Shown in pieces: positions 16,789 through 25,751 of a stretch of 53,769 nt of DNA. A program made the position numbers and the translations under genes. The stretch lies in NCBI GenBank assembly GCA_002155895.1, contig MUMD01000014.1, positions 1-53,769 on the forward strand, read 5' to 3'. The DNA comes from Streptomyces rochei. Its GTDB lineage: Bacteria > Actinomycetota > Actinomycetes > Streptomycetales > Streptomycetaceae. Positions within the stretch are counted from its first letter, which is position 1. Each line of letters starts with the position of its first letter. Under the pieces are notes generated by a model. The model had not been told where the DNA came from and searched no databases. It was given only the letters and a program-made list of their open reading frames with translations.

Positions 16789-18141
16789 ATGCACGCAGAA
16801 CCGATGAAATCGCAGGCGGAGTCCCGGGGGGTCTCGCTGGTGGGGGAGGAGTACGAGGTCGAGATCGGCCCCGTCGCCCACGGCGGCCACTGCATCGCCC
16901 GTACGTCCGAGGGGCAGGTGTTGTTCGTACGGCACGCCCTGCCCGGCGAGCGGGTCGTGGCCCGCGTGACCGAGGGCGAGGAGGGCGCACGCTTCCTGCG
17001 CGCCGACGCGGTCGAGATCCTGGACGCCTCCAAGGACCGCATCGAGGCGCCCTGCCCCTTCGCCGGTCCCGGCCGCTGCGGCGGCTGCGACTGGCAGCAC
17101 GCCAAGCCGGGCGCCCAGCGCCGCCTCAAGGGCGAGGTCGTCGCCGAGCAGCTGAAGCGCCTGGCGGGTCTCACCCCCGAGGAGGCCGGCTGGGACGGCA
17201 CGGTGATGCCGGCCGAGGGCGACAAGGTGCCCGCCGGCCAGGTCCCGTCCTGGCGCACGCGCGTGCAGTACGCGGTCGACGCCGAGGGCCGGGCGGGCCT
17301 GCGCAAGCACCGCTCGCACGAGGTCCAGCCGATCGACCACTGCATGATCGCCGCGGAGGGTGTCAGCGAGCTGGGCATCGAGGCGCGGGACTGGACGGGC
17401 ATGGAGTCCGTCGACGCGATCGCGGCGACCGGCTCCCAGGACCGCCAGGTCATCCTGACCCCGCGACCGGGCGCCCGCCTGCCCATCGTCGAACTGGACC
17501 GCCCGGTCTCCGTCATGCGGGTCGGCGAGAAGGACGGCGGCGTCCACCGCGTCCACGGCCGCCCCTTCGTCCGCGAACGCGCCGACGACCGCACCTACCG
17601 CGTCGGCAACGGCGGCTTCTGGCAGGTCCACCCCAAGGCCGCCGACACCCTCGTCAAGGCGGTCATGCAGGGCCTCCTGCCGCGCAAGGGCGACATGGCC
17701 CTCGACCTCTACTGCGGCGTCGGCCTCTTCGCCGGCGCCCTCGCCGACCGGGTCGGCGACAAGGGCGCCGTCCTCGGCGTCGAGTCCGGCAAGCGCGCGG
17801 TCGAGGACGCCCGGCACAACCTCGCCGGCTTCGACCGGGTGCGGATCGAGCAGGGCAAGGTGGAGTCCGTCCTGCCGCGTACGGGCATCGACGAGGTCGA
17901 CCTCATCGTCCTGGACCCGCCGCGCGCGGGCGCGGGACGCAAGACGGTGCAGCACCTGTCGTCGCTGGGGGCACGCCGGATCGCCTACGTGGCCTGCGAC
18001 CCGGCAGCACTGGCCCGGGACCTGGCGTACTTCCGGGACGGGGGGTACCGGGTGCGGACGCTGCGGGTGTTCGACCTGTTTCCTATGACGCACCATGTGG
18101 AGTGCGTGGCGATTCTGGAGCCTGCTGGTAAGGGGTCCTGA
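16789..18141 (+). CDS. TrmA/RlmD-type SAM-dependent RNA m5U methyltransferase
   Basis: Class I methyltransferase of 450 residues that methylates uridine C5 in tRNA or rRNA. An N-terminal TRAM domain (about 18-80) is followed by iron-sulfur-type cysteines C89, C97, C100 and C185, the SAM motif LDLYCGVG (305-312), DPPRAG at 376, and the catalytic Cys403 in VACDP. The four cluster cysteines favour an RlmD-like enzyme, but the rRNA or tRNA target cannot be fixed. The 3' end overlaps a 41-bp sequence repeated at 25228-25268, where a second 3' end ending THHVECVAILEPA is left over. The tail of this copy (GKGS) may therefore have been supplied by the integrated island. Confidence 0.92.
   Translation: MHAEPMKSQAESRGVSLVGEEYEVEIGPVAHGGHCIARTSEGQVLFVRHALPGERVVARVTEGEEGARFLRADAVEILDASKDRIEAPCPFAGPGRCGGCDWQHAKPGAQRRLKGEVVAEQLKRLAGLTPEEAGWDGTVMPAEGDKVPAGQVPSWRTRVQYAVDAEGRAGLRKHRSHEVQPIDHCMIAAEGVSELGIEARDWTGMESVDAIAATGSQDRQVILTPRPGARLPIVELDRPVSVMRVGEKDGGVHRVHGRPFVRERADDRTYRVGNGGFWQVHPKAADTLVKAVMQGLLPRKGDMALDLYCGVGLFAGALADRVGDKGAVLGVESGKRAVEDARHNLAGFDRVRIEQGKVESVLPRTGIDEVDLIVLDPPRAGAGRKTVQHLSSLGARRIAYVACDPAALARDLAYFRDGGYRVRTLRVFDLFPMTHHVECVAILEPAGKGS
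18085..18125 (+). repeat. Left attachment-like core repeat
   Basis: 41-bp direct repeat inside the last codons of the RNA methyltransferase gene, encoding MTHHVECVAILEP. It matches 25228-25268 with a single C/T difference at position 9. Upstream of it the two copies diverge mainly at third codon positions. Confidence 0.75.
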
Positions 18142-18296
18142 CCTGCGCTTTCGCTGTCCGGGTGGGGTTGCTCGACCTGTTTCCCTCCGTGTAGCGGTTC
18201 GAGCGGGCGGATCGATCTTTGCAGCTCGCTGACCTGCGGGTTCGTGAGCAGGGCGCTTGCGACGGCGACGCCTTCACATGGCTCTCGCGGAGTTGT

Positions 18297-18315
18297 TGAC
18301 GCTCGGATGACGCTC
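18297..18315 (+). repeat. Paired octamer, candidate integrase arm site (left)
   Basis: TGACGCTC is repeated after 3 nt, an 11-nt period that puts both copies on the same face of the helix. The same arrangement with a different spacer occurs at 25124-25142. It lies 171 nt inside the left core repeat. Confidence 0.55.
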
Positions 18316-18412
18316 GAAACGGGAGTTTCTGCTGCGCCTCTGCGGTAGGGATGCAAGCGGTCGCGTGGTCCCACACTCCGCGAGCCGAGAGCGTGGCCCG
18401 CATCGTGCCATT

Positions 18413-18438
18413 TGATACCAGCCTGGTATCATACTTGC
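18413..18438 (+). promoter_or_regulatory. Autoregulatory operator and promoter of the toxin-antitoxin pair
   Basis: TGATACCA (18413-18420) and TGGTATCA (18424-18431) form a perfect inverted repeat with a 3-nt spacer. A -10-like TATCAT (18427-18432) overlaps the right arm and ends 6 nt before the antitoxin ATG. The layout suggests that the ribbon-helix-helix antitoxin represses its own, probably leaderless, promoter. Confidence 0.65.
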
Positions 18439-18633
18439 ATGGCGATGACACTTCGACTCCCCGAGGATCTTGACGCGAAGCTCACCGAGCGAGCTCGTCG
18501 GGAAGGCCGCAGCAAGCAGGAACTTGCCATCGAGGCCATCCGGGACGCTCAAGAGCGGGCCGAGCTGAAGGTCGAGGACGTTCTCGCGGAACTCATGGAC
18601 AGCGATGCGGAAATCTTGGACTACCTGAAGTGA
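18439..18633 (+). CDS. Ribbon-helix-helix antitoxin
   Basis: Small protein of 64 residues. MTLRLPEDLDAKLTERA forms the DNA-contacting strand and first helix of a ribbon-helix-helix dimer, followed by GRSKQELAIEAIRDA. The acidic C-terminus (VEDVLAELMDSDAEILDYLK) is the expected toxin-binding segment. The ATG at 18439 is chosen because it follows the -10-like box directly and begins the fold; an upstream start at 18412 would lie inside the operator. The last bases overlap the toxin start (GTGA), the usual coupling for these pairs. It would neutralise the Doc-like toxin and repress the operon. Confidence 0.85.
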   Translation: MAMTLRLPEDLDAKLTERARREGRSKQELAIEAIRDAQERAELKVEDVLAELMDSDAEILDYLK

Positions 18634-19022
18634 CCGAAGTGCGCTACATCCAGATCGACGAGATTTTGGCCATCGCTCGCACGGTCAACGGCACCGAGCA
18701 CAGCGTGCGTGACATGGGCCTCCTGGTGTCGGCGATCGAGCGGCCCCGGACCAACGTGTTCGGGGCCGAGCTGTATCCCACGCTGCATGAAAAGGCCGCG
18801 GCACTCCTGCACTCCGTCGCTCGCAATCACGCGCTGATCGACGGCAACAAGCGCACCGCCTGGCTCGCCATGCGTGTCTTCCTCCGGTTCAACGGCGTCA
18901 GCGCCGGCACCGTCCCGCCGCCCGCCTACGTCGCCGGCCCGTTCGTCGAGGAAGTCGCGCAGGACAACGTCGATGTACCGGTCATTGCCAAGCGCCTGGC
19001 GGCTTGGTTCCCCGTTTCCTGA
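18630..19022 (+). CDS. Doc-family (Fic fold) toxin, death-on-curing type
   Basis: Toxin of 130 residues with the Fic signature HALIDGNKRTAW; His67 is the catalytic base, and Asp71, Asn73 and Arg75 are positioned for the nucleotide. The Lys after Gly-Asn is the Doc variant, whose best-known member phosphorylates elongation factor Tu instead of adding AMP. The N-terminal YIQIDEILAIAR and the two-domain helical layout also fit Doc. The usual Phe of the motif is Leu here, common in actinobacterial members. It overlaps the antitoxin gene. It probably stabilises the island or acts in phage-induced growth arrest. Confidence 0.87.
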   Translation: MTEVRYIQIDEILAIARTVNGTEHSVRDMGLLVSAIERPRTNVFGAELYPTLHEKAAALLHSVARNHALIDGNKRTAWLAMRVFLRFNGVSAGTVPPPAYVAGPFVEEVAQDNVDVPVIAKRLAAWFPVS

Positions 19023-19256
19023 CGTTCGACGATGCGAGGGCAAGGCGCGCGTGCCGTACCCTTACACGCTGTCCGGCCCTGCTCGGGTCATGCCGGAATG
19101 GGGCGCTGTGGGTGCCGTGACCATCGGGCGCCGCGTGGCTGGGCGGCTGCCTCGGGGCGGCCGACTCACGTTGCCCACGACACCCGCGTCATCCGAGCCG
19201 GGGCAGGAACGGGTTGGCCGAGTACAGGAGCGCGCGATGCCCTCCCTGCGCCGGAG

Positions 19257-19706
19257 CTACTGGCGATCCGCGCGAGGGACGTGATCCACGTGAAAGGTCA
19301 GCCCGGTGACGGTGCCCGACTGGACGACGGGACCGTGCTGGACTCCTCCGCTGATGTGATTGTCCACCGTGCGCCAGGTGCCTGCCGCGGACGCCGAGAG
19401 CTGCAGTAACGAGGTCAGCAGGGCACGCAGGGCTTCGTCACTGCCGTCGTCGGCTTCCGCCAGTCGGCGCAGACGGTCACCGTATCGTCGGCTGATCTCT
19501 CGGGTGGTCCCTTCACGTTCCGTGGCGTCGGCGGCGAGGAGCCGGGTCCTCGCGTCCTGCAGGTCGTCGAACGTGTTGGGGTCCGCGCCTGTGCGGGTCA
19601 GGTACCGCCCGACGAGTTCCCGGGCGTGTGTCCAGGAGTCGGTGACCATGAGGGAGACCAGTGTGGTGGCGCCCGACGCCGCGAGTACGGCCAGTTCGCT
19701 GTCCAT
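19257..19706 (-). CDS. Small membrane-anchored protein with C-terminal Gly/Val strand motif
   Basis: Protein of 149 residues, last gene of the TIR operon. The N-terminus has one membrane helix (LAVLAASGATTLVSLMVTD). A helical middle contains many Arg and Glu (about 45-105). The C-terminus carries ISGGVQHGPVVQSGTVTG, a short strand motif resembling those in the operon's TIR and ATPase proteins. GGAGAAG upstream of the ATG at 19706 supports the start; an open frame further upstream overlaps the SPFH-like gene. The gap to that gene is 10 nt. Its role is not known. A membrane adaptor or effector recruited through the strand motif is possible. Confidence 0.72.
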   Translation of the reverse strand: MDSELAVLAASGATTLVSLMVTDSWTHARELVGRYLTRTGADPNTFDDLQDARTRLLAADATEREGTTREISRRYGDRLRRLAEADDGSDEALRALLTSLLQLSASAAGTWRTVDNHISGGVQHGPVVQSGTVTGLTFHVDHVPRADRQ

Positions 19707-19716
19707 GTGTCTTCTC

Positions 19717-20784
19717 CTAGGCGAGGGGGGAGGTGGGGGAGGGCGCCTCGTCGTCGTCCGCAGCGAGGGACGCCGGCGGATCGAAGTGGTGCTGGATGTC
19801 CTCGGCGGTCTCGTGGCGGTTCTGCTCCTTGATGAGGCCGGCGATCTGTGCCGCGAGCATCGGGCGGCGTACATCTCCGTCGGTGAAACCGATGCTGTCG
19901 AGGAAGTCGGAGAGACGCATCGTGGCCGTTTCCCGTCCCTGCGGCGCTGAGGCGGGCTCCGCCCCGGGAAAGTCCGACGTCGTCGGCTCGCCGGCCTGCT
20001 GAGAGATCAGATCCCGAAGCCGTTCGGGAATGTCGGTGTCATTGGCCGCCGAGGTGAGCTGAGCGAGCAGGGCCAGGTCGTTCACCGTACGTTCCACATG
20101 CTCGTCGTTCCTGGCGAGCCACCAGACCACGGCGCTGCCGGTGTCCTTGAGGACGTCCTCGCCCAAGTATCGGCGCCTGCTCTGCTCGTACTTGCGCTGG
20201 TGCACCCAGACTTCCTCGTCCTTGCGTACGTCGGCGAGCTTGTCGAGGCGCTCCTGGTCCTGCTGCGCCAGGACGAGCTGGACGTTCTCCGCCATCGCCT
20301 GGAGGTGCCCGGTGGACTCAGGCGCCATCCGGCCGAGGGCGCCGGACAGTTCCTGCTCGACGAGTGAGGCCCGGACCGGTTCTCGTTGCTCGGTGATGGC
20401 GCGGGCCCGCTTCAGGACCGCGTCGACGGCGAGACCCGCCGGGTTGAAAACGGGGGCACTCGCGGGAGCGTCGACGAGGTACCAGCGCACCGTCGCGGAG
20501 AAGACGAAGTCGTAGTCGGCCCACTTGCTGGGCAGCACTACCTGGCTGACGCGGTGTTCCGTGCGTTCCACGGGGGCGGCCGTGAGCTGCTCCTCGAAAG
20601 CCACCGGTACCGTGCCGCGGCGCATCGCGGCGATCCGGAAGACGGCTGCGGGGACGACGAGCAGCAGCACTGCCAGCAGTGGCCAAGCCCATGCGGGCCA
20701 CCGCTGCGTCAGTCCGACGATGCTCAGCAGGAGACCGCTGAGAACGGTGAGGAAGACGGTTGTGGTTTTCCGTGCGGTGGTCAT
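19717..20784 (-). CDS. SPFH/band-7-like membrane protein
   Basis: Protein of 355 residues. Two close membrane helices at the start (LTVLSGLLLSIVGLT and LLAVLLLVVPAAVF) are followed by a soluble domain in which FSATVRWYLVDAP, VLKRARAITEQ and a long charged helix (AENVQLVLAQQDQERLDKL) recall SPFH/band-7 proteins, which form membrane-associated rings. The last 80 residues are acidic and low-complexity. The ATG at 20784 would overlap a TGA in the ATPase's alternative frame (ATGA), suggesting original coupling. It may scaffold the TIR/ATPase complex at the membrane. The SPFH assignment is by resemblance and is uncertain. Confidence 0.65.
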   Translation of the reverse strand: MTTARKTTTVFLTVLSGLLLSIVGLTQRWPAWAWPLLAVLLLVVPAAVFRIAAMRRGTVPVAFEEQLTAAPVERTEHRVSQVVLPSKWADYDFVFSATVRWYLVDAPASAPVFNPAGLAVDAVLKRARAITEQREPVRASLVEQELSGALGRMAPESTGHLQAMAENVQLVLAQQDQERLDKLADVRKDEEVWVHQRKYEQSRRRYLGEDVLKDTGSAVVWWLARNDEHVERTVNDLALLAQLTSAANDTDIPERLRDLISQQAGEPTTSDFPGAEPASAPQGRETATMRLSDFLDSIGFTDGDVRRPMLAAQIAGLIKEQNRHETAEDIQHHFDPPASLAADDDEAPSPTSPLA

Positions 20785-22765
20785 GGTCGAGTGCCCCTGA
20801 GGTCGTAGGCGGTGCGGCCCGAGCGATGCCCTGCGCCGCGCTGATCTTGTGGAGCAGCAGACCGGTGGTCTCCGCGGCCCGCGCCGCATCCCCCGGACCG
20901 GTGCGCTCGGCGTCGCGGGCGCACGCGTACAGCAGGGCGAAGACCTTGCCCCGCTTCTCCGTGCACCGCTGTGCCGCGCTGACGAGGAGGTCGAGCAGGA
21001 GCCCGCCGTGTGGTCCGGTGACGGTGGTCGCCCGGTGGAGCCAGCGCCGTGCTGCGGCCTGCCACTGCGGAGGCGGCAGCTCGGTCAGTACCGCGTGCCA
21101 ACAGGTTGTCAGGGAGCGCTGCGCGCTCTGCTCGTCGATCAGCGCGTGCGAGGTGCCGGGGCGGAGCGTCAACAGTTCGGGGTCGCTGGCCTGGAGGAAG
21201 ATCTCGAGACGGGCGGGTGAGAAGTCGGAACGGGCGAGACGGTCGAGCAGCACGCGGTGCAGCCTGCGGCTGCGCGCCGTCAGATCGCACAGCGCCTGCC
21301 GGGCACGCGTCGTGCCGCGCTCACGCCGGGCCAGGTGGTGGAGCCTGACCAGGGCTTGATCGGGATGACTGGTCGCGAGGACGTCGGCACAGACGCGGAC
21401 CAGCACCTGCGCGAGCTCCCCCTTGAGGCTCCGGTTGGCGCACCACTGGTAGATCTGCTCGCGGAGCTCCCTGGCGTGCACCGGGTCCGCCAGCCCGCGG
21501 GTGAGCGCATGAACGGCCGCCTCCAGGCGAGGCCGGCTCGTCACACCGGTGCTCCAGCCTTCGACGAGGGCCCCCAGGCCGTCCGCACGTCCGGTCCGCA
21601 GGTACTCACCGGCCACTCGTTCCACCAGGCCGTCGCGTACGACGGGGACGACATGCGGGTCGTTCAGCTCCACCACACTCGCGGCCCAGGCGCCGAGGTG
21701 GGGGCGGAGATCGGGCATGTGGTCCCAGAAATGGGCGCGAACGGCGGAGTCGAAGCCCACCTTCTCGAACCGGACCTGTCCGTTGGGGGCGGCAGTGGCC
21801 GAGATCTCGAGGAGTCGCTCGGCGAGGTCCCGGTGCTCCAGAGGCGAGACGCCCTCCGACAAAGGCCCGAGGGTGCTCATCAGTTGCTCGGCCGCGCGGT
21901 GAACGACATCGGCATGCGCCCCGTGCATCATGGACACGGCGATCAGCAGGGCTCTTTGCGGTGCCTCCCGCAGCTCGGTGACGAGCGCTGCGGCTTCCCG
22001 GCGGCCGTCGTTCCGCGCCCGCCCGGCCGCCTCGCACCACTGACCGAATCCGTCCCCGGGCTGACCGGCCTCGCGTGCCCGGCGCACCAGGTCGGCGAAC
22101 TCCGCGATCTCCCGCATCGGCCTGTTCGCCGTCAGGAACCCGGTGACGGTGCCGTCCGACCGGAGATATTCCTCAGGCGGCACACCGTGCAGGCGCAGAT
22201 GCCGCCGGAAAACGCCGATACCGGGAGGCCGTTCGAGCACCACGCGGCAGAACTGCAGGTCCGGGTCTAGAACGCCGCGGTGCGGCATGACCACGACCAG
22301 ATGAGCCCGCTGCTCGTGCACGGCCTTGCGCAGCGCCGGGAGGTCGGCCTGGGCTGCGGCCCAGCGGCGGTCGTCCGCGGCGGACAGGTCCAGCAGCAAC
22401 TGGTCACCGGTCCCGACCAGAGCGGGGTCCTGGAGAGAGAGCTCGTCCTTCTCACCGGGCAGGAGTTCGTGGAAGACACCACTGTCCCGGTGGTGTTCGT
22501 ACAGCAGTACCCGGGCCGCAGCCGACCGGCCACTGCCCGGGACACCGTCCAGGATGACGGTGCCGGAGTCGGCGAGTACGGCACGAGCCTCGCCCATGCA
22601 CGGCGGAGCGACCAGTACATAGCGCAGTCGACGGCGTTGGTCCTCGGCGACTCGGCGGAAAGCCGGTCTGTCCGAGCCCTGTAGCTGCGTGCCGATGTAG
22701 ACGTCGCCAGGGCCCGTGACCGTGACGCCCGAGTCCCGGACCCAGGTGCCGGTGTGCTGGTTCAC
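20318..22765 (-). CDS. P-loop ATPase of the TIR operon, probable 3' frameshift
   Basis: As read, a protein of 815 residues. The N-terminus has DSGVTVTGPGDVYIGTQ, then a nucleotide-binding segment GVPGSGRSA (74-82) in which Arg80 replaces the Walker A Lys, and LLLDLS as a likely Walker B. The rest (about 200-650) is helical, repeat-like and rich in Leu/Arg, resembling STAND-type sensor regions. Beyond about residue 660 the frame runs 467 nt antiphase through the SPFH-like gene and turns Arg/Pro-rich, while another frame gives a TGA overlapping that gene's ATG. The true end is probably 20781 with a one-base indel. The start overlaps the TIR stop (ATGA). Confidence 0.7.
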   Translation of the reverse strand: MNQHTGTWVRDSGVTVTGPGDVYIGTQLQGSDRPAFRRVAEDQRRRLRYVLVAPPCMGEARAVLADSGTVILDGVPGSGRSAAARVLLYEHHRDSGVFHELLPGEKDELSLQDPALVGTGDQLLLDLSAADDRRWAAAQADLPALRKAVHEQRAHLVVVMPHRGVLDPDLQFCRVVLERPPGIGVFRRHLRLHGVPPEEYLRSDGTVTGFLTANRPMREIAEFADLVRRAREAGQPGDGFGQWCEAAGRARNDGRREAAALVTELREAPQRALLIAVSMMHGAHADVVHRAAEQLMSTLGPLSEGVSPLEHRDLAERLLEISATAAPNGQVRFEKVGFDSAVRAHFWDHMPDLRPHLGAWAASVVELNDPHVVPVVRDGLVERVAGEYLRTGRADGLGALVEGWSTGVTSRPRLEAAVHALTRGLADPVHARELREQIYQWCANRSLKGELAQVLVRVCADVLATSHPDQALVRLHHLARRERGTTRARQALCDLTARSRRLHRVLLDRLARSDFSPARLEIFLQASDPELLTLRPGTSHALIDEQSAQRSLTTCWHAVLTELPPPQWQAAARRWLHRATTVTGPHGGLLLDLLVSAAQRCTEKRGKVFALLYACARDAERTGPGDAARAAETTGLLLHKISAAQGIARAAPPTTSGALDHDHRTENHNRLPHRSQRSPAEHRRTDAAVARMGLATAGSAAARRPRSRLPDRRDAPRHGTGGFRGAAHGRPRGTHGTPRQPGSAAQQVGRLRLRLLRDGALVPRRRSRECPRFQPGGSRRRRGPEAGPRHHRATRTGPGLTRRAGTVRRPRPDGA

Positions 22766-23514
22766 CGGTCCTTGTCCTCGTGACCGTCCCGTTCATCGAA
22801 CCGGTGCTGGATGGTGCCGTTGTGGTCGCCCTCGAAGTACGTCATCCCGGCACCCGAGAAGTGACGGTCGCCCGAGACGTGGCGTGAATGCGAGTAGATG
22901 TTGCCGTTCCCGGTGTGGACAGGTCCGTGGGCGCCCTTGACGACCGTGCCGACGTCACCGGTGAAGTCACGGCTCTGTACGGCGGTACCGTTCACGGTCC
23001 CGATGGAATTGGTCACGCTGCCCGGCGCGGGCGCATCCGCCTCGTTCCCGGACCGGTCGTCCAGGCCGGGAATCAGGTCGGCCATCAGATCACCGATGCG
23101 CGCGACACACACGTCGGTGTCACCGGAGTCACACGCGATGGACTGGAGATCGGCGAGCCGTCGCAACGCGGGCGGAAGATCGGCCTTGCTCAGCCGGCTG
23201 GTTCTGCGTCCGTCCAGAACGGGGACCACTGGGACCTCACACTTGAAAGCCTCTTCGATCTCCTTGCGCACCCAGTCCTCGGGATCCTCGAGCCGGGTAC
23301 GGAAGTTGGTCCAGTCCGGTCCGATGACGGCCAGGAGTACGGAGCTGCGCCGTACCGCGGCCAGTAGCCGTTCGGGCCAGCTTTGACCAGGGACGATGGA
23401 CTGTGACGCGTGGAACGCGTGTCCCGGGCCGAAGCGGTGCGACAGCCCTTGGCGGAGCAGGGCCGCGGTCTTCTCCCCGTCTCCGGTGCGGTAGTTGATG
23501 AACATCTCGCTCAT
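22762..23514 (-). CDS. TIR domain protein with Gly-rich C-terminal strands
   Basis: Protein of 250 residues. A TIR domain covers about 1-150: MFINYRTGDGEKTA opens the fold, VLLAVIGPDW is the central strand, and WVRKEIEEAF carries Glu85, the likely catalytic residue of NAD-cleaving TIR enzymes. The C-terminal 90 residues are Gly/Ser/Asn-rich with repeated strand-like pieces such as GDVGTVVKGAHGPVHTG, and HFSGAGMTYFEGDHNG near the end. In bacterial defence, TIR proteins deplete NAD or make cyclic ADP-ribose signals after phage sensing. It overlaps both neighbours (ATGA), so it is stoichiometrically tied to the XRE and ATPase proteins. Confidence 0.85.
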   Translation of the reverse strand: MSEMFINYRTGDGEKTAALLRQGLSHRFGPGHAFHASQSIVPGQSWPERLLAAVRRSSVLLAVIGPDWTNFRTRLEDPEDWVRKEIEEAFKCEVPVVPVLDGRRTSRLSKADLPPALRRLADLQSIACDSGDTDVCVARIGDLMADLIPGLDDRSGNEADAPAPGSVTNSIGTVNGTAVQSRDFTGDVGTVVKGAHGPVHTGNGNIYSHSRHVSGDRHFSGAGMTYFEGDHNGTIQHRFDERDGHEDKDR

Positions 23515-24821
23515 GACGGTGGCTCCTCAAGAGGGGTGGTCGGGCGTGACAAGGTGCCGAGCCGCGGTGCCAGCCGGCGTACCGGTGGGTGGTCCGGGTA
23601 GCGACCCAACACCCGGGCGAGCCGTCGGAGATCGGTCGTGACGGTCGCTGAGCGCACCGCCGTCACACCGTCGAGCAGTGGCTCCGTCAGCGCGCACGCG
23701 TGGTCGATCTCGCCGGCGGAGGCATAGGCGAGCGCGCGGCGTACGCCGTACCGCACCTGCGTACGCACCGCGTCGGGGCCGACCTGAGTGAGCTGCCGAT
23801 CCAGTTCCTCACCCGCCTCGCGGGGTCGGCCGAGATCGACGAGGCACCAGCCGGTGACCATGCCGACCGGATCGGGAAGATGCATAGAGCCGATCACCGG
23901 ATCGTCGGCACCGTCGTTCCCGCGGGCGAGCAGACTACGAGCCCGGTCCAGGGCACGGAGGCAGGCGCCGACATCACCGGCGAGGGCGCGACCCTGCGCT
24001 TCGCGCTGTGCGGCGAGACCACGGATCCGTGACGGCAGCACGCCGGTCTGCGCCCTGCGGGCCAGCGCGATCGTCTGCTCGGCGTCCTCCCGGTACAGCG
24101 TGACCAACGCCCTGCGGACCAGCGCGTAACCGGCCAGTGCCTGATCCCCGCCGGCGGCGGCCAGGTCGACCGCACGCTGTGTCCACCACAGCGCCGCGCG
24201 CTCGTCCCCGGTCTCCTGCACCAGCCAGCCCACGTACTCTGCGTACCGGGAACCGAGCGCCAGCAGGCGGCATCTGGTGCCGCTGTCGCTCTGCGCCGAC
24301 AGCTCCCGCAACGTGTGTGTCTGCGCGATCAGAACGGGCAGGAGCAGGCCGGGTTCCGCGGTTTGGCCGAGTCTGCGGTAGTGCGTGAGGAGTGAGCGTG
24401 AGGCTTCCAGCATGCCGGCGCCGGCGGCCGGGGAAGCCGGACTCGATCCGTCCGACCTCCAGGTCATCAGCGAGGCGACTCCGGCATTCATCACCTCACG
24501 CCGGCCCATGGGCCCGAATGAACTCGGGCCGTCCGGCGACAACTGCATCATCCAGTTCTCCTCCTCGACGCGGCCTGGCGCCGACACGGCAGGTGAATCG
24601 ACGGCGGCAGGGGTGCTCAGGGCGATCAGCGCCCCGTCGGTACCGAGTGCGGCATCGCACAGCCGCACGAGATCACGGCTGGGTGCCTTGATGCCCCGCT
24701 CGACCTTGCTGAGTTGCGCCTTGCTGTAGTGCACGAGACCGGACAGGTCCGTGAGGCTCAGTCCGGCCTCCAGACGCCGCTTCCTCAGTTCCTCGCCGAA
24801 CGGTGTGGACGGTTGGGGCAC
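23511..24821 (-). CDS. XRE-family regulator with TPR-like region, first gene of TIR operon
   Basis: Protein of 436 residues. An XRE helix-turn-helix lies at the N-terminus (FGEELRKRRLEAGLSLTDL, then YSKAQLSKVERG). The remaining 350 residues are helical with TPR-like spacing, containing ALWWTQRAVDLAAAGGDQAL and ALDRARSLLARGNDG; such C-terminal regions bind peptides or partners. The GTG at 24821 is chosen for its strong GGGAGG ribosome site 5 nt upstream; the open frame continues 52 codons further without family character. The stop overlaps the TIR start (ATGA). It is probably the operon's repressor and possibly its sensor. Confidence 0.82.
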   Translation of the reverse strand: MPQPSTPFGEELRKRRLEAGLSLTDLSGLVHYSKAQLSKVERGIKAPSRDLVRLCDAALGTDGALIALSTPAAVDSPAVSAPGRVEEENWMMQLSPDGPSSFGPMGRREVMNAGVASLMTWRSDGSSPASPAAGAGMLEASRSLLTHYRRLGQTAEPGLLLPVLIAQTHTLRELSAQSDSGTRCRLLALGSRYAEYVGWLVQETGDERAALWWTQRAVDLAAAGGDQALAGYALVRRALVTLYREDAEQTIALARRAQTGVLPSRIRGLAAQREAQGRALAGDVGACLRALDRARSLLARGNDGADDPVIGSMHLPDPVGMVTGWCLVDLGRPREAGEELDRQLTQVGPDAVRTQVRYGVRRALAYASAGEIDHACALTEPLLDGVTAVRSATVTTDLRRLARVLGRYPDHPPVRRLAPRLGTLSRPTTPLEEPPS

Positions 24822-25123
24822 GGGGACCTCCCAAGCCCCGTCGTCCGGGCTGAGGCGGTGCTGCACGGAAGAGTGCGACACCAACTCCCGGACGGACAAG
24901 GCGGTCGAAGCTGTTTCCCGTTTCCATCTCCGACGGCGGGGCGCGGCAAGCGTCGTCAGCCAGCGACCTTCGATCACACTTCACCTCTGACGACGGTCCC
25001 CTCGTACGCACTGCGCGCACCGACGCGACTCCACCGGCGTGAGACTCCGTACCGGTGGAGGCGTTGCGTACTACGGGGAGCCGTGGCGTGCCAGAGTTTC
25101 GGCGCCGAACCGACGTAGGGCCG

Positions 25124-25142
25124 TGACGCTCATTTGACGCTC
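25124..25142 (+). repeat. Paired octamer, candidate integrase arm site (right)
   Basis: TGACGCTC, a 3-nt spacer ATT and TGACGCTC again, the same form and orientation as 18297-18315. It ends 85 nt before the right core repeat and would lie inside the island. Confidence 0.55.
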
Positions 25143-25215
25143 CGAGCGTCCGGCGGCTCTCATCCGGGTCCCAAAAGCGTCTCTGACCTGCTGCTTTCCT
25201 GCCTGCGGCCAGGCC

Positions 25216-25284
25216 GACATCTTCCCGATGACGCATCATGTGGAGTGCGTGGCGATTCTGGAGCCTGCCACACAGGGGCTCTGA
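25216..25284 (+). pseudogene. Stranded 3' end of a TrmA/RlmD-type methyltransferase gene
   Basis: Reading from 25216, the frame gives DIFPMTHHVECVAILEPA, then TQGL and a TGA at 25282-25284. This matches the last residues of the intact methyltransferase (DLFPMTHHVECVAILEPA then GKGS). No upstream part of the gene is present. It is the expected scar of integration into the gene's 3' end. Confidence 0.8.
25228..25268 (+). repeat. Right attachment-like core repeat
   Basis: This is the second copy of the 41-bp repeat at 18085-18125 with one mismatch. The 32 bases from 25237 to 25268 are identical to 18094-18125. Confidence 0.75.
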
Positions 25285-25751
25285 ACAGCTGTTTCTCTAT
25301 GTTGCTCGGTCGAGTGCGGGGGTTTGCCCGACCTGTGTGTCGAAGTGGACGACGTGAACTGCATCGCACGCTCCCGAATGTCACCTGATCTGGCGTTCCA
25401 AGCGCGGTATGAGAGGCCACAGATGTCGTCAGTGGCAGAACCCAAAGGAAGCCCACTGACCGGACCCAACTCCACAGAACGCGTCAAATAGGGGCGAAGG
25501 CTCGCTGACCTCGCCGCGGCACCGAAGCGCACACAGTCGGCAACGAACTCCTCCACCTCCCCGGAGCCGTTCCACGTCCCCCATCGCAGTCCCACGCAGA
25601 CCACCCCGCACCTGATGTCTCAGCGGTCACCGAACGCGCCGTCCCTGCATCCCGCGCGCCCCCCGTGCACACTGAGCCAGCCATGTTCCCTCCAGTAAGG
25701 CTGTATGAGCGGTGATCCACCGCCCGATACCACAGCCTGGAGGGGGACGCG

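Follow-up and report, generated by a model that had tools for sequence, protein, structure and literature searches.

A likely non-autonomous, integrase-less island at the 3' end of rlmD in Streptomyces rochei, and a genus-wide family of ends at the same site

We analysed a stretch of 53,769 nucleotides from Streptomyces rochei (contig MUMD01000014.1, hereafter the window), which is a whole contig of a 7.68-Mb genome in 808 contigs. It holds a complete gene for an rlmD-type 23S rRNA methyltransferase, followed by a unit of 7.1 kb (18085-25268) that is bounded by the gene's own 3' end on one side and by a second copy of this end on the other (Table 1). Both borders carry a 41-bp repeat, as a first-pass annotation of the sequence had noticed; the two copies of this core are identical at 40 of 41 nt, stand at an offset of 7143 bp, and are embedded in a longer repeat (84 nt, 80% identical) that exceeds all other direct repeats listed across the 9.5 kb examined. 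A 29-nt core probe with up to three mismatches matches these two places only in the window, and 100 shuffles gave no match. The right core lies, as had been proposed, in a stranded methyltransferase 3' end: the 69-nt fragment comes from rlmD and not from an unrelated gene, and it retains frame and stop codon (25282-25284). One exact TGACGCTC-N3-TGACGCTC pair is found just inside each border, both in the same orientation, and there are no others genome-wide with up to one mismatch (7.68 Mb; reversed control 0). A degenerate second core-like stretch lies about 100 bp past the core on both sides (18146-18200 and 25300-25360), likewise in several relatives, and may represent an old scar or else serve as an accessory site.

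Neither an integrase nor an excisionase, nor a remnant of either, was found between these ends, in agreement with the first-pass annotation. A Pfam scan of the seven encoded proteins gave no integrase, recombinase or transposase (no serine-recombinase family search was run over the whole elements), and a PF00589 search of the genome at E 1e-5 gave no match on this contig. A tblastn search of the whole window with the integrase and the excisionase-like protein of islands with the same ends (Int and Xis, see below) returned nothing better than E 0.17.

The cargo consists of a toxin-antitoxin (TA)-like pair of ribbon-helix-helix (RHH) and Doc proteins, plus a five-gene operon on the opposite strand. 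The operon looks like phage defence and would be antiviral; conserved in 31 Streptomyces loci, and with no padloc match for the three of its proteins that were scanned, it is a candidate uncatalogued defence operon. The h150 and TIR proteins and the N-terminus of the STAND-like protein contain short motifs that we take to resemble amyloid-signalling sequences. The RHH/Doc pair recurs at a similar position behind several left ends of the kind seen here (type 2, see below): among 30 homologous Doc loci, including that of the window, an arm pair lies 312-334 bp before Doc in 7 and a core within less than 900 bp in 16.

Table 1. Features of the unit at rlmD and of its borders, in window coordinates.
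Feature	Position	Strand	Remarks
rlmD-type 23S rRNA methyltransferase	16804..18141	+	complete, 445 aa; NCBIfam rumA/RlmD 206.7 bits (cut-off 183.55); TRAM domain; its 3' end is the attachment site
Left core copy, attL side, within rlmD	18085..18125	+	BK208 unit alike from 18072 onwards
Left arm-type pair TGACGCTC-GGA-TGACGCTC (TGACGCTCGGATGACGCTC)	18297..18315	+	exact; type-2 left end; CATGTGG core anchor 203 bp away
RHH antitoxin-like protein	18439..18630	+	RHH_1 above cut-off; RelB-like below cut-off
Doc/Fic death-on-curing-like toxin	18630..19022	+	Fic 2.9e-15; DOC_P1 over cut-off; forms TA pair with the RHH gene
h150, small putative membrane protein	19257..19709	-	last gene of cargo operon; with the operon in 26/31 Streptomyces loci; no Pfam/NCBIfam match
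h363, putative membrane protein	19717..20784	-	cargo operon; 31/31 loci at 56-92%; no Pfam/NCBIfam/padloc match
STAND-like NTPase	20318..22765	-	cargo operon; weak nSTAND3 match (0.002), below cut-off; query that found the 31 loci
TIR-domain protein	22762..23514	-	cargo operon; TIR_2 2.7e-8, above cut-off
XRE/NsdA-family TPR-like regulator	23511..24977	-	cargo operon; HTH_31; NsdA_fam_reg above cut-off
Right arm-type pair TGACGCTC-ATT-TGACGCTC (TGACGCTCATTTGACGCTC)	25124..25142	+	exact; 113 bp before the CATGTGG core anchor
CTGACCTG box	25183..25190	+	possible accessory site; another directly after the left rlmD stop; read from sequence contexts
Right core copy, attR side, within duplicated rlmD 3' end	25228..25268	+	BK208 unit alike up to 25265

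To the right of the unit, positions 25752-53769 of the window encode a type IIG restriction-methylation gene, a kinase, and homologues of DrmD, DrmMI/IIG-like, DrmA and DrmB. This DISARM-like cluster is broken up by other genes, and the contig stops shortly past the DrmB homologue. We considered these genes as part of the unit and rejected the idea: they lie outside the right core, and the window has no further arm pair with up to two mismatches. The block may be a further element whose right end lies beyond the contig.

The ends of the unit belong to a family that is spread across the genus. A search for the pair at other sites, as the first-pass annotation had suggested, found it in its exact form in 135 of 295 Streptomyces genomes, while the reversed pattern gave two matches in total. 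With up to one mismatch the pair is present in 215 of the 295 genomes; we prefer the exact count because at this setting the reversed control also matches in some. The target gene was present in all 40 Streptomyces genomes searched for rlmD, and extra C-terminal fragments of it (residues ~399-445, often several) occur in 24 of the 33 pair-positive genomes and in one of the seven pair-negative ones (G042); the remaining nine pair-positive genomes have no duplicated fragment. The 3' end of rlmD is a Streptomyces-wide integration hot spot. In the open-licence literature we found no description of the motif, of the Int family or of rlmD as a Streptomyces island site; papers that contain the letters TGACGCTC together with Streptomyces look like chance sequence matches, judged by their titles and abstracts. 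Eleven IMG/VR stretches also contain the pair but lack core, rlmD, Int and cargo homologues, and we took them for chance occurrences; a phage origin of the left end was dismissed, with phage matches only at E 1 or more.

Loci of this family follow a common architecture, in which the core at the rlmD 3' end is followed by a left end and the cargo, and then by a right arm pair, a CTGACCTG-like box and another core. Of 43 distinct right ends, which were anchored by core and box and many of which had been fetched via the motif itself, 39 carry the pair (up to two mismatches), always 104-115 bp ahead of the core anchor, and the reversed pattern never comes closer than four mismatches; among loci fetched via Int, the STAND protein or Doc, all except one (L241) show the right-end pair. 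Left ends come in two forms. Type 1 has two pairs at ~103-135 bp from the core, and type 2, the form found in the window, has a single pair, mostly with N3 = GGA, at ~190-225 bp; the GGA form occurs 191-225 bp from the core in G177, G013, G243, BK208 and WAC04229. Cargo is varied, and one unit at the rlmD site (L073, genome G036) has GH10/GH62 xylan-degrading enzymes, with no recombinase among the three proteins scanned.

Some islands at the rlmD site encode a tyrosine recombinase of 362 aa (Int, PF00589), directly preceded by an excisionase-like HTH protein (Xis) that was recognised in 29 of 30 Int loci and that matches HTH_17 above the cut-off and the excisionase family TIGR01764 below it. 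At E 1e-40, Int was found in 37 of the 295 genomes (36 at 65-100% identity, one at 33%) and not in that of S. rochei, in a search that scored at most six candidates in the genomes listed and may have missed divergent integrases. A phage origin of Int was also rejected: all 54 phage records are below 60% identity, and the 15 listed are at 26.9-34.3%. Of the 36 Int genomes 30 contain the exact pair, as do 105 of the 259 others (Fisher p 1.3e-6); since these 105 genomes have the pair without Int, most genomes with the ends lack the enzyme. An earlier idea that no element has an integrase was abandoned: the regular expression used on 20 stretches plus the window was too strict (two non-gene-like hits), and PF00589 then found Int in several arrays. 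In L063, L081 and L148, Xis and Int are preceded by another integrase-like protein, which is shorter (~210-250 aa); those of L063 and L148 cover only the first 120 of 172 PF00589 positions, and that of L081 is 44% identical to that of L063.

The sequence of the arms changes with the enzyme. Exact TGACGCTC pairs are present in all 27 genomes whose Int is at least 84% identical, against 3 of 9 with Int below 75% (p 4e-5), while exact TGACGCAC-GT[T/A]-TGACGCAC is present in none of the former and in 6 of the latter. When one mismatch and any spacer are allowed, the TGACGCAC pair occurs in 12 of 27 and 8 of 9, respectively, the reversed control giving two matches. In a midpoint-rooted Int tree of 30 tips (six without arm label; G171 and G188, which have mixed right arms, labelled by their left arms), the TGACGCAC form falls within a single clade, and TGACGCTC is the form of the deepest branch (G159). 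Since the arm sequence changes with the Int clade, the TGACGCTC pairs are probably arm-type sites bound by Int. The first-pass annotation had read the ends of the unit as what a tyrosine integrase needs, and this reading gains support from the Int of islands with the same ends in 36 genomes, the fixed geometry of the right ends, arms that covary with the Int clade, and a second copy of the unit bordered at the core.

This second copy is found in strain BK208, one of 31 loci with the cargo operon, the named ones of which are all Streptomyces. In 25 of these, with STAND proteins at 47-69% identity, no core was seen in the DNA fetched; the other six are 87-92% alike. The similarity between BK208 and the window begins and ends at the core, at 85.3% over the left 1 kb and 93.2% over the next 6.2 kb, with ~360 bp extra between them. 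The BK208 unit lies on another contig than the rlmD of that strain, its left neighbour is the right end of another element, and its right neighbour differs; outside the unit only att-type sequence is alike. Both arm pairs are exact, as in the window, despite a cargo difference of 7%.

The ends are also carried by plasmids, where an exchange at the core can be seen. Two linear plasmids, of Streptomyces sp. NBC_01201 and Alt3, show just three differences over the first 18,016 bases compared, a common stretch that includes a 7.6-kb unit with cargo for a type VII secretion system (T7SS)-secreted protein and no Int homologue, and they diverge from a base inside the core. At that point the NBC_01201 plasmid has ~8.4 kb extra without an Int homologue, whose left end is present and whose right end is degraded, past which Alt3-like sequence is found again (94.9% over 527 bp). 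The same left end occurs on the large linear plasmids L097 (NZ_CP107794.1) and L257 (NZ_CP108566.1), and similar clusters of the non-ribosomal peptide synthetase (NRPS)/siderophore type lie near the left end on two large linear plasmids.

On these computed features, namely the ends, the duplication, the genus-wide family, the cognate Int with its Xis-like gene, the covariation of arms and Int clade and the BK208 unit with the same borders, we consider it likely that the S. rochei unit is a non-autonomous, integrase-less integrative island that was moved by an integrase encoded elsewhere and is now stranded. The unit would have inserted into the rlmD 3' end by site-specific recombination of its own core, leaving the gene intact and duplicating its 3' end at the far border. 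The TGACGCTC pairs, at 11-bp spacing, would serve as arm-type sites and the rlmD 3' end as core-type site of Int working with the Xis-like protein, both of which may be supplied by other islands of the family at the same core, either in trans or through tandem accretion and excision of a composite. Int would bridge core and arm sites and recombine the two cores, so that a circle is released and rlmD restored; either this circle or a composite formed with an Int-bearing neighbour would travel by a route not encoded in the unit and re-insert at an rlmD core. In the meantime the RHH/Doc pair would keep the unit in place. Since no cognate Int was found in the S. rochei genome, the unit is presumably stranded and nothing should move now.

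The most serious alternative is that the unit is a frozen relic: an Int-bearing island at rlmD would have lost Int and Xis by deletion and then been inherited vertically, its ends being functionless leftovers. We think this could be so, with the balance of evidence leaning the other way. The absence of Int from the S. rochei genome suits it as well, and so do some of the close relatives. In S. parvulus the cargo lies behind rlmD with neither arms nor right core seen, at an identity to the window of 90.4%, about equal to that of the backbone (89-90%; all backbone and cargo identities are from pieces >400 bp). In S. beigongshangae it also lies behind rlmD, with a left pair (one mismatch) and a gap across TIR and regulator, and an Int fragment (residues 77-121, one stop) is found ~3.3 kb beyond the cargo, which favours decay there. 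The first-pass annotation had named relatives with the cargo and without the duplicated 3' end as evidence against its own reading of the ends; such relatives exist in these two species, where no right end or duplicated rlmD 3' end was seen in the 17-22 kb fetched, and BK208, with both ends, does not conform to them. We read the two as degraded copies, because BK208 keeps both ends, WAC04229 the left one (with cargo behind another element's right end and the right end not seen) and S. fuscigenes a right one (with cargo fused to an Int-bearing element). In S. aurantiacus, the cargo lies on a contig without visible ends.

What speaks against a frozen relic is, first, that the arm pairs of the window and of BK208 are all exact although their cargo differs by 7%, and that no Int remnant was found in the window. 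Moreover, the cargo is closer to that of the window than the backbone is in S. fuscigenes (91.7% against 82-87%) and S. aurantiacus (92.8% against 84-88%), which points to horizontal movement, and the values for S. beigongshangae are 91.5-92.8% and 85-90%. WAC04229, with cargo at 90.9% and backbone at 89-90%, gives no such indication, nor does S. parvulus. Finally, two successive elements in WAC04229 have their RHH-Doc left module in common (93.3% over ~960 bp) and nothing else within the 2.4 kb fetched of the second; this speaks in favour of a non-autonomous lineage that exists next to decayed elements.

The contiguous stretches examined contain 12 two-ended units without Int and 6 with Int, numbers that give no rate, since several stretches had been chosen for holding Int, and that leave out one unit of G210 (right core, no right arms) and the units of G022 and G036 (no right core by pattern). 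No PF00589 match was found at E 1e-5 inside the units of G000, G013, G124, G196, G204, G210 and G243. In G022 the arm pairs stand ~1.5 kb apart, and the main genes of the unit are an AbiEii-like gene and its small partner; alignment places this unit on the right end of the G007 element, which has Int, and it looks like a deletion derivative, as the relic alternative would have it. An AbiEii-like gene with a small partner is likewise seen just inside the right end of the elements L063, L066, L067 and L148, with or without Int (in L148 by sequence likeness only).

Several observations weigh against movement in trans, beside the limits already given with the Int search and with the sample of right ends. 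A left pair with up to two mismatches is present in only 7 of the 12 integrase-less units, compared with 6 of 6 Int-bearing ones, so that part of the former have decayed at one end. All six delimited Int-bearing elements have type-1 left ends and none has the type-2 form, which may have an Int of its own. Of 20 stretches of 15-20 kb chosen for Int, 11 have a right end with core downstream of Int and 3 only an arm pair; neither is present in the other 6, one of which (G270) does have a TGACGCAC-type pair. Both ends are found in only one of the six close cargo relatives, BK208, and the backbone of this strain (89-90%) is itself close to the value of its cargo (93.2%); to this add the near-equal values of WAC04229 and S. 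parvulus, the missing right ends of the latter and of S. beigongshangae, and the Int fragment of S. beigongshangae. The insertion of another island into the core beside a resident unit also changes its neighbours, and a new context alone is no proof that the unit moved. On the NBC_01201 plasmid, the deletion at the right junction means that an Int gene may have been lost later.

A wider form of the preferred reading, movement in trans, is that Streptomyces keeps a dedicated lineage of integrase-less islands. These would keep to one constant frame, running from an rlmD core through an arm pair, Doc/RHH and a free cargo slot to a second arm pair and core, would exchange defence, TA and other cargo across the genus, and would be run in trans by rarer Int/Xis islands with at least two arm codes, TGACGCTC and TGACGCAC. 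We offer this as a tentative proposal, about as probable as the relic and somewhat short of an even chance.

Less probable, and in our view unlikely, is an integron-like platform, in which the rlmD core would act as a chromosomal capture site that gathers and shuffles integrase-less units across the genus, Int being only occasionally resident. Tandem units without Int and with differing cargo would fit such a platform, as would the 105 of 135 exact-pair genomes without Int at E 1e-40 and the carriage of the same ends by plasmids. However, the units measure ~1.5-30 kb and hold several genes between two different, complex ends, as opposed to the one-gene integron cassette with its attC; Int sits inside islands and not as a fixed platform gene; and it is no IntI-type enzyme, scoring 41.5 bits against the integron-integrase model, for which the cut-off is 265. 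Finally, an origin of the repeat in homologous recombination or segmental duplication, with the pairs as chance or regulatory sites, can be practically discounted: weaker similarity does extend the repeat to 84 nt, but genus-wide enrichment and fixed geometry speak against chance, and the repeated part is the extreme 3' end of the gene only, mostly beside an arm pair.

These data suggest that defence and TA modules can move between Streptomyces species without a mobility gene of their own, in units that integrase-based finders of mobile elements would miss. Core, arm pair and fixed spacing provide a signature by which such cargo may be listed genome by genome. Int/Xis and the ends would make up a two-part system with two natural arm forms, which, if it works in trans, could become a tool for site-specific integration at a conserved protein-coding gene in Streptomyces.

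Among known systems, the nearest solved relatives of Int are 6EMZ and 6EN0, which we take to be Tn1549 Int, with weak similarity (E about 1e-8) to integrases of the Tn916/Tn1549 type; the rlmD family differs in being site-specific. Its paired arm sites at 11-bp spacing presumably resemble the DR2 repeats of Tn916. Actinomycete integrative and conjugative elements (AICEs) are, like the family at rlmD, actinobacterial islands put into gene 3' ends by integrases, but in the sections of the source at hand they have mostly tRNA targets and an integrase of their own (PMC3218068). A recombinase of its own, as expected of an integrative and mobilizable element (IME), an integrative and conjugative element (ICE) or an AICE, was not found in the unit between 18141 and 25213. 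The ssrA islands of Dehalococcoides, as far as excerpts of their description go, are likewise tandem islands bounded by repeats of a gene 3' end, part of them with an integration module, which is of the serine recombinase type and directed at tmRNA, unlike the tyrosine integrase and rlmD target found here (PMC3146451).

The closest case within Streptomyces, in the portion of the paper available, is PAISt of S. turgidiscabies at bacA, where the 3' end of a protein-coding gene is also duplicated and an integrase-free module excises separately from an integrase-carrying one (PMC4057263). Its target, however, is the bacA palindrome TTCATGAA, which is absent from the rlmD core, and its integrase is reported there as not identified by Pfam, while Int is a PF00589 enzyme (PMC4057263). 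The closest concept in the literature on integrative elements is that of cis-mobilizable elements (CIMEs), defined in the available part of the source as decayed ICEs or IMEs (PMC5704250). Like a CIME, the unit keeps attL and attR, in the form of the core repeat and of arm pairs; its right end has the geometry seen in Int-bearing elements, its left end another form than theirs. Also like a CIME, it has no integration or transfer genes that we could find (seven proteins by Pfam, part of them by padloc and NCBIfam, in addition to the PF00589 and tblastn searches), and the family forms tandem arrays with related elements at a gene 3' end (PMC5704250). It departs from the CIMEs of that partial account in that most genomes with the ends lack the integrase and that some units have a left-end TA module in common (PMC5704250).

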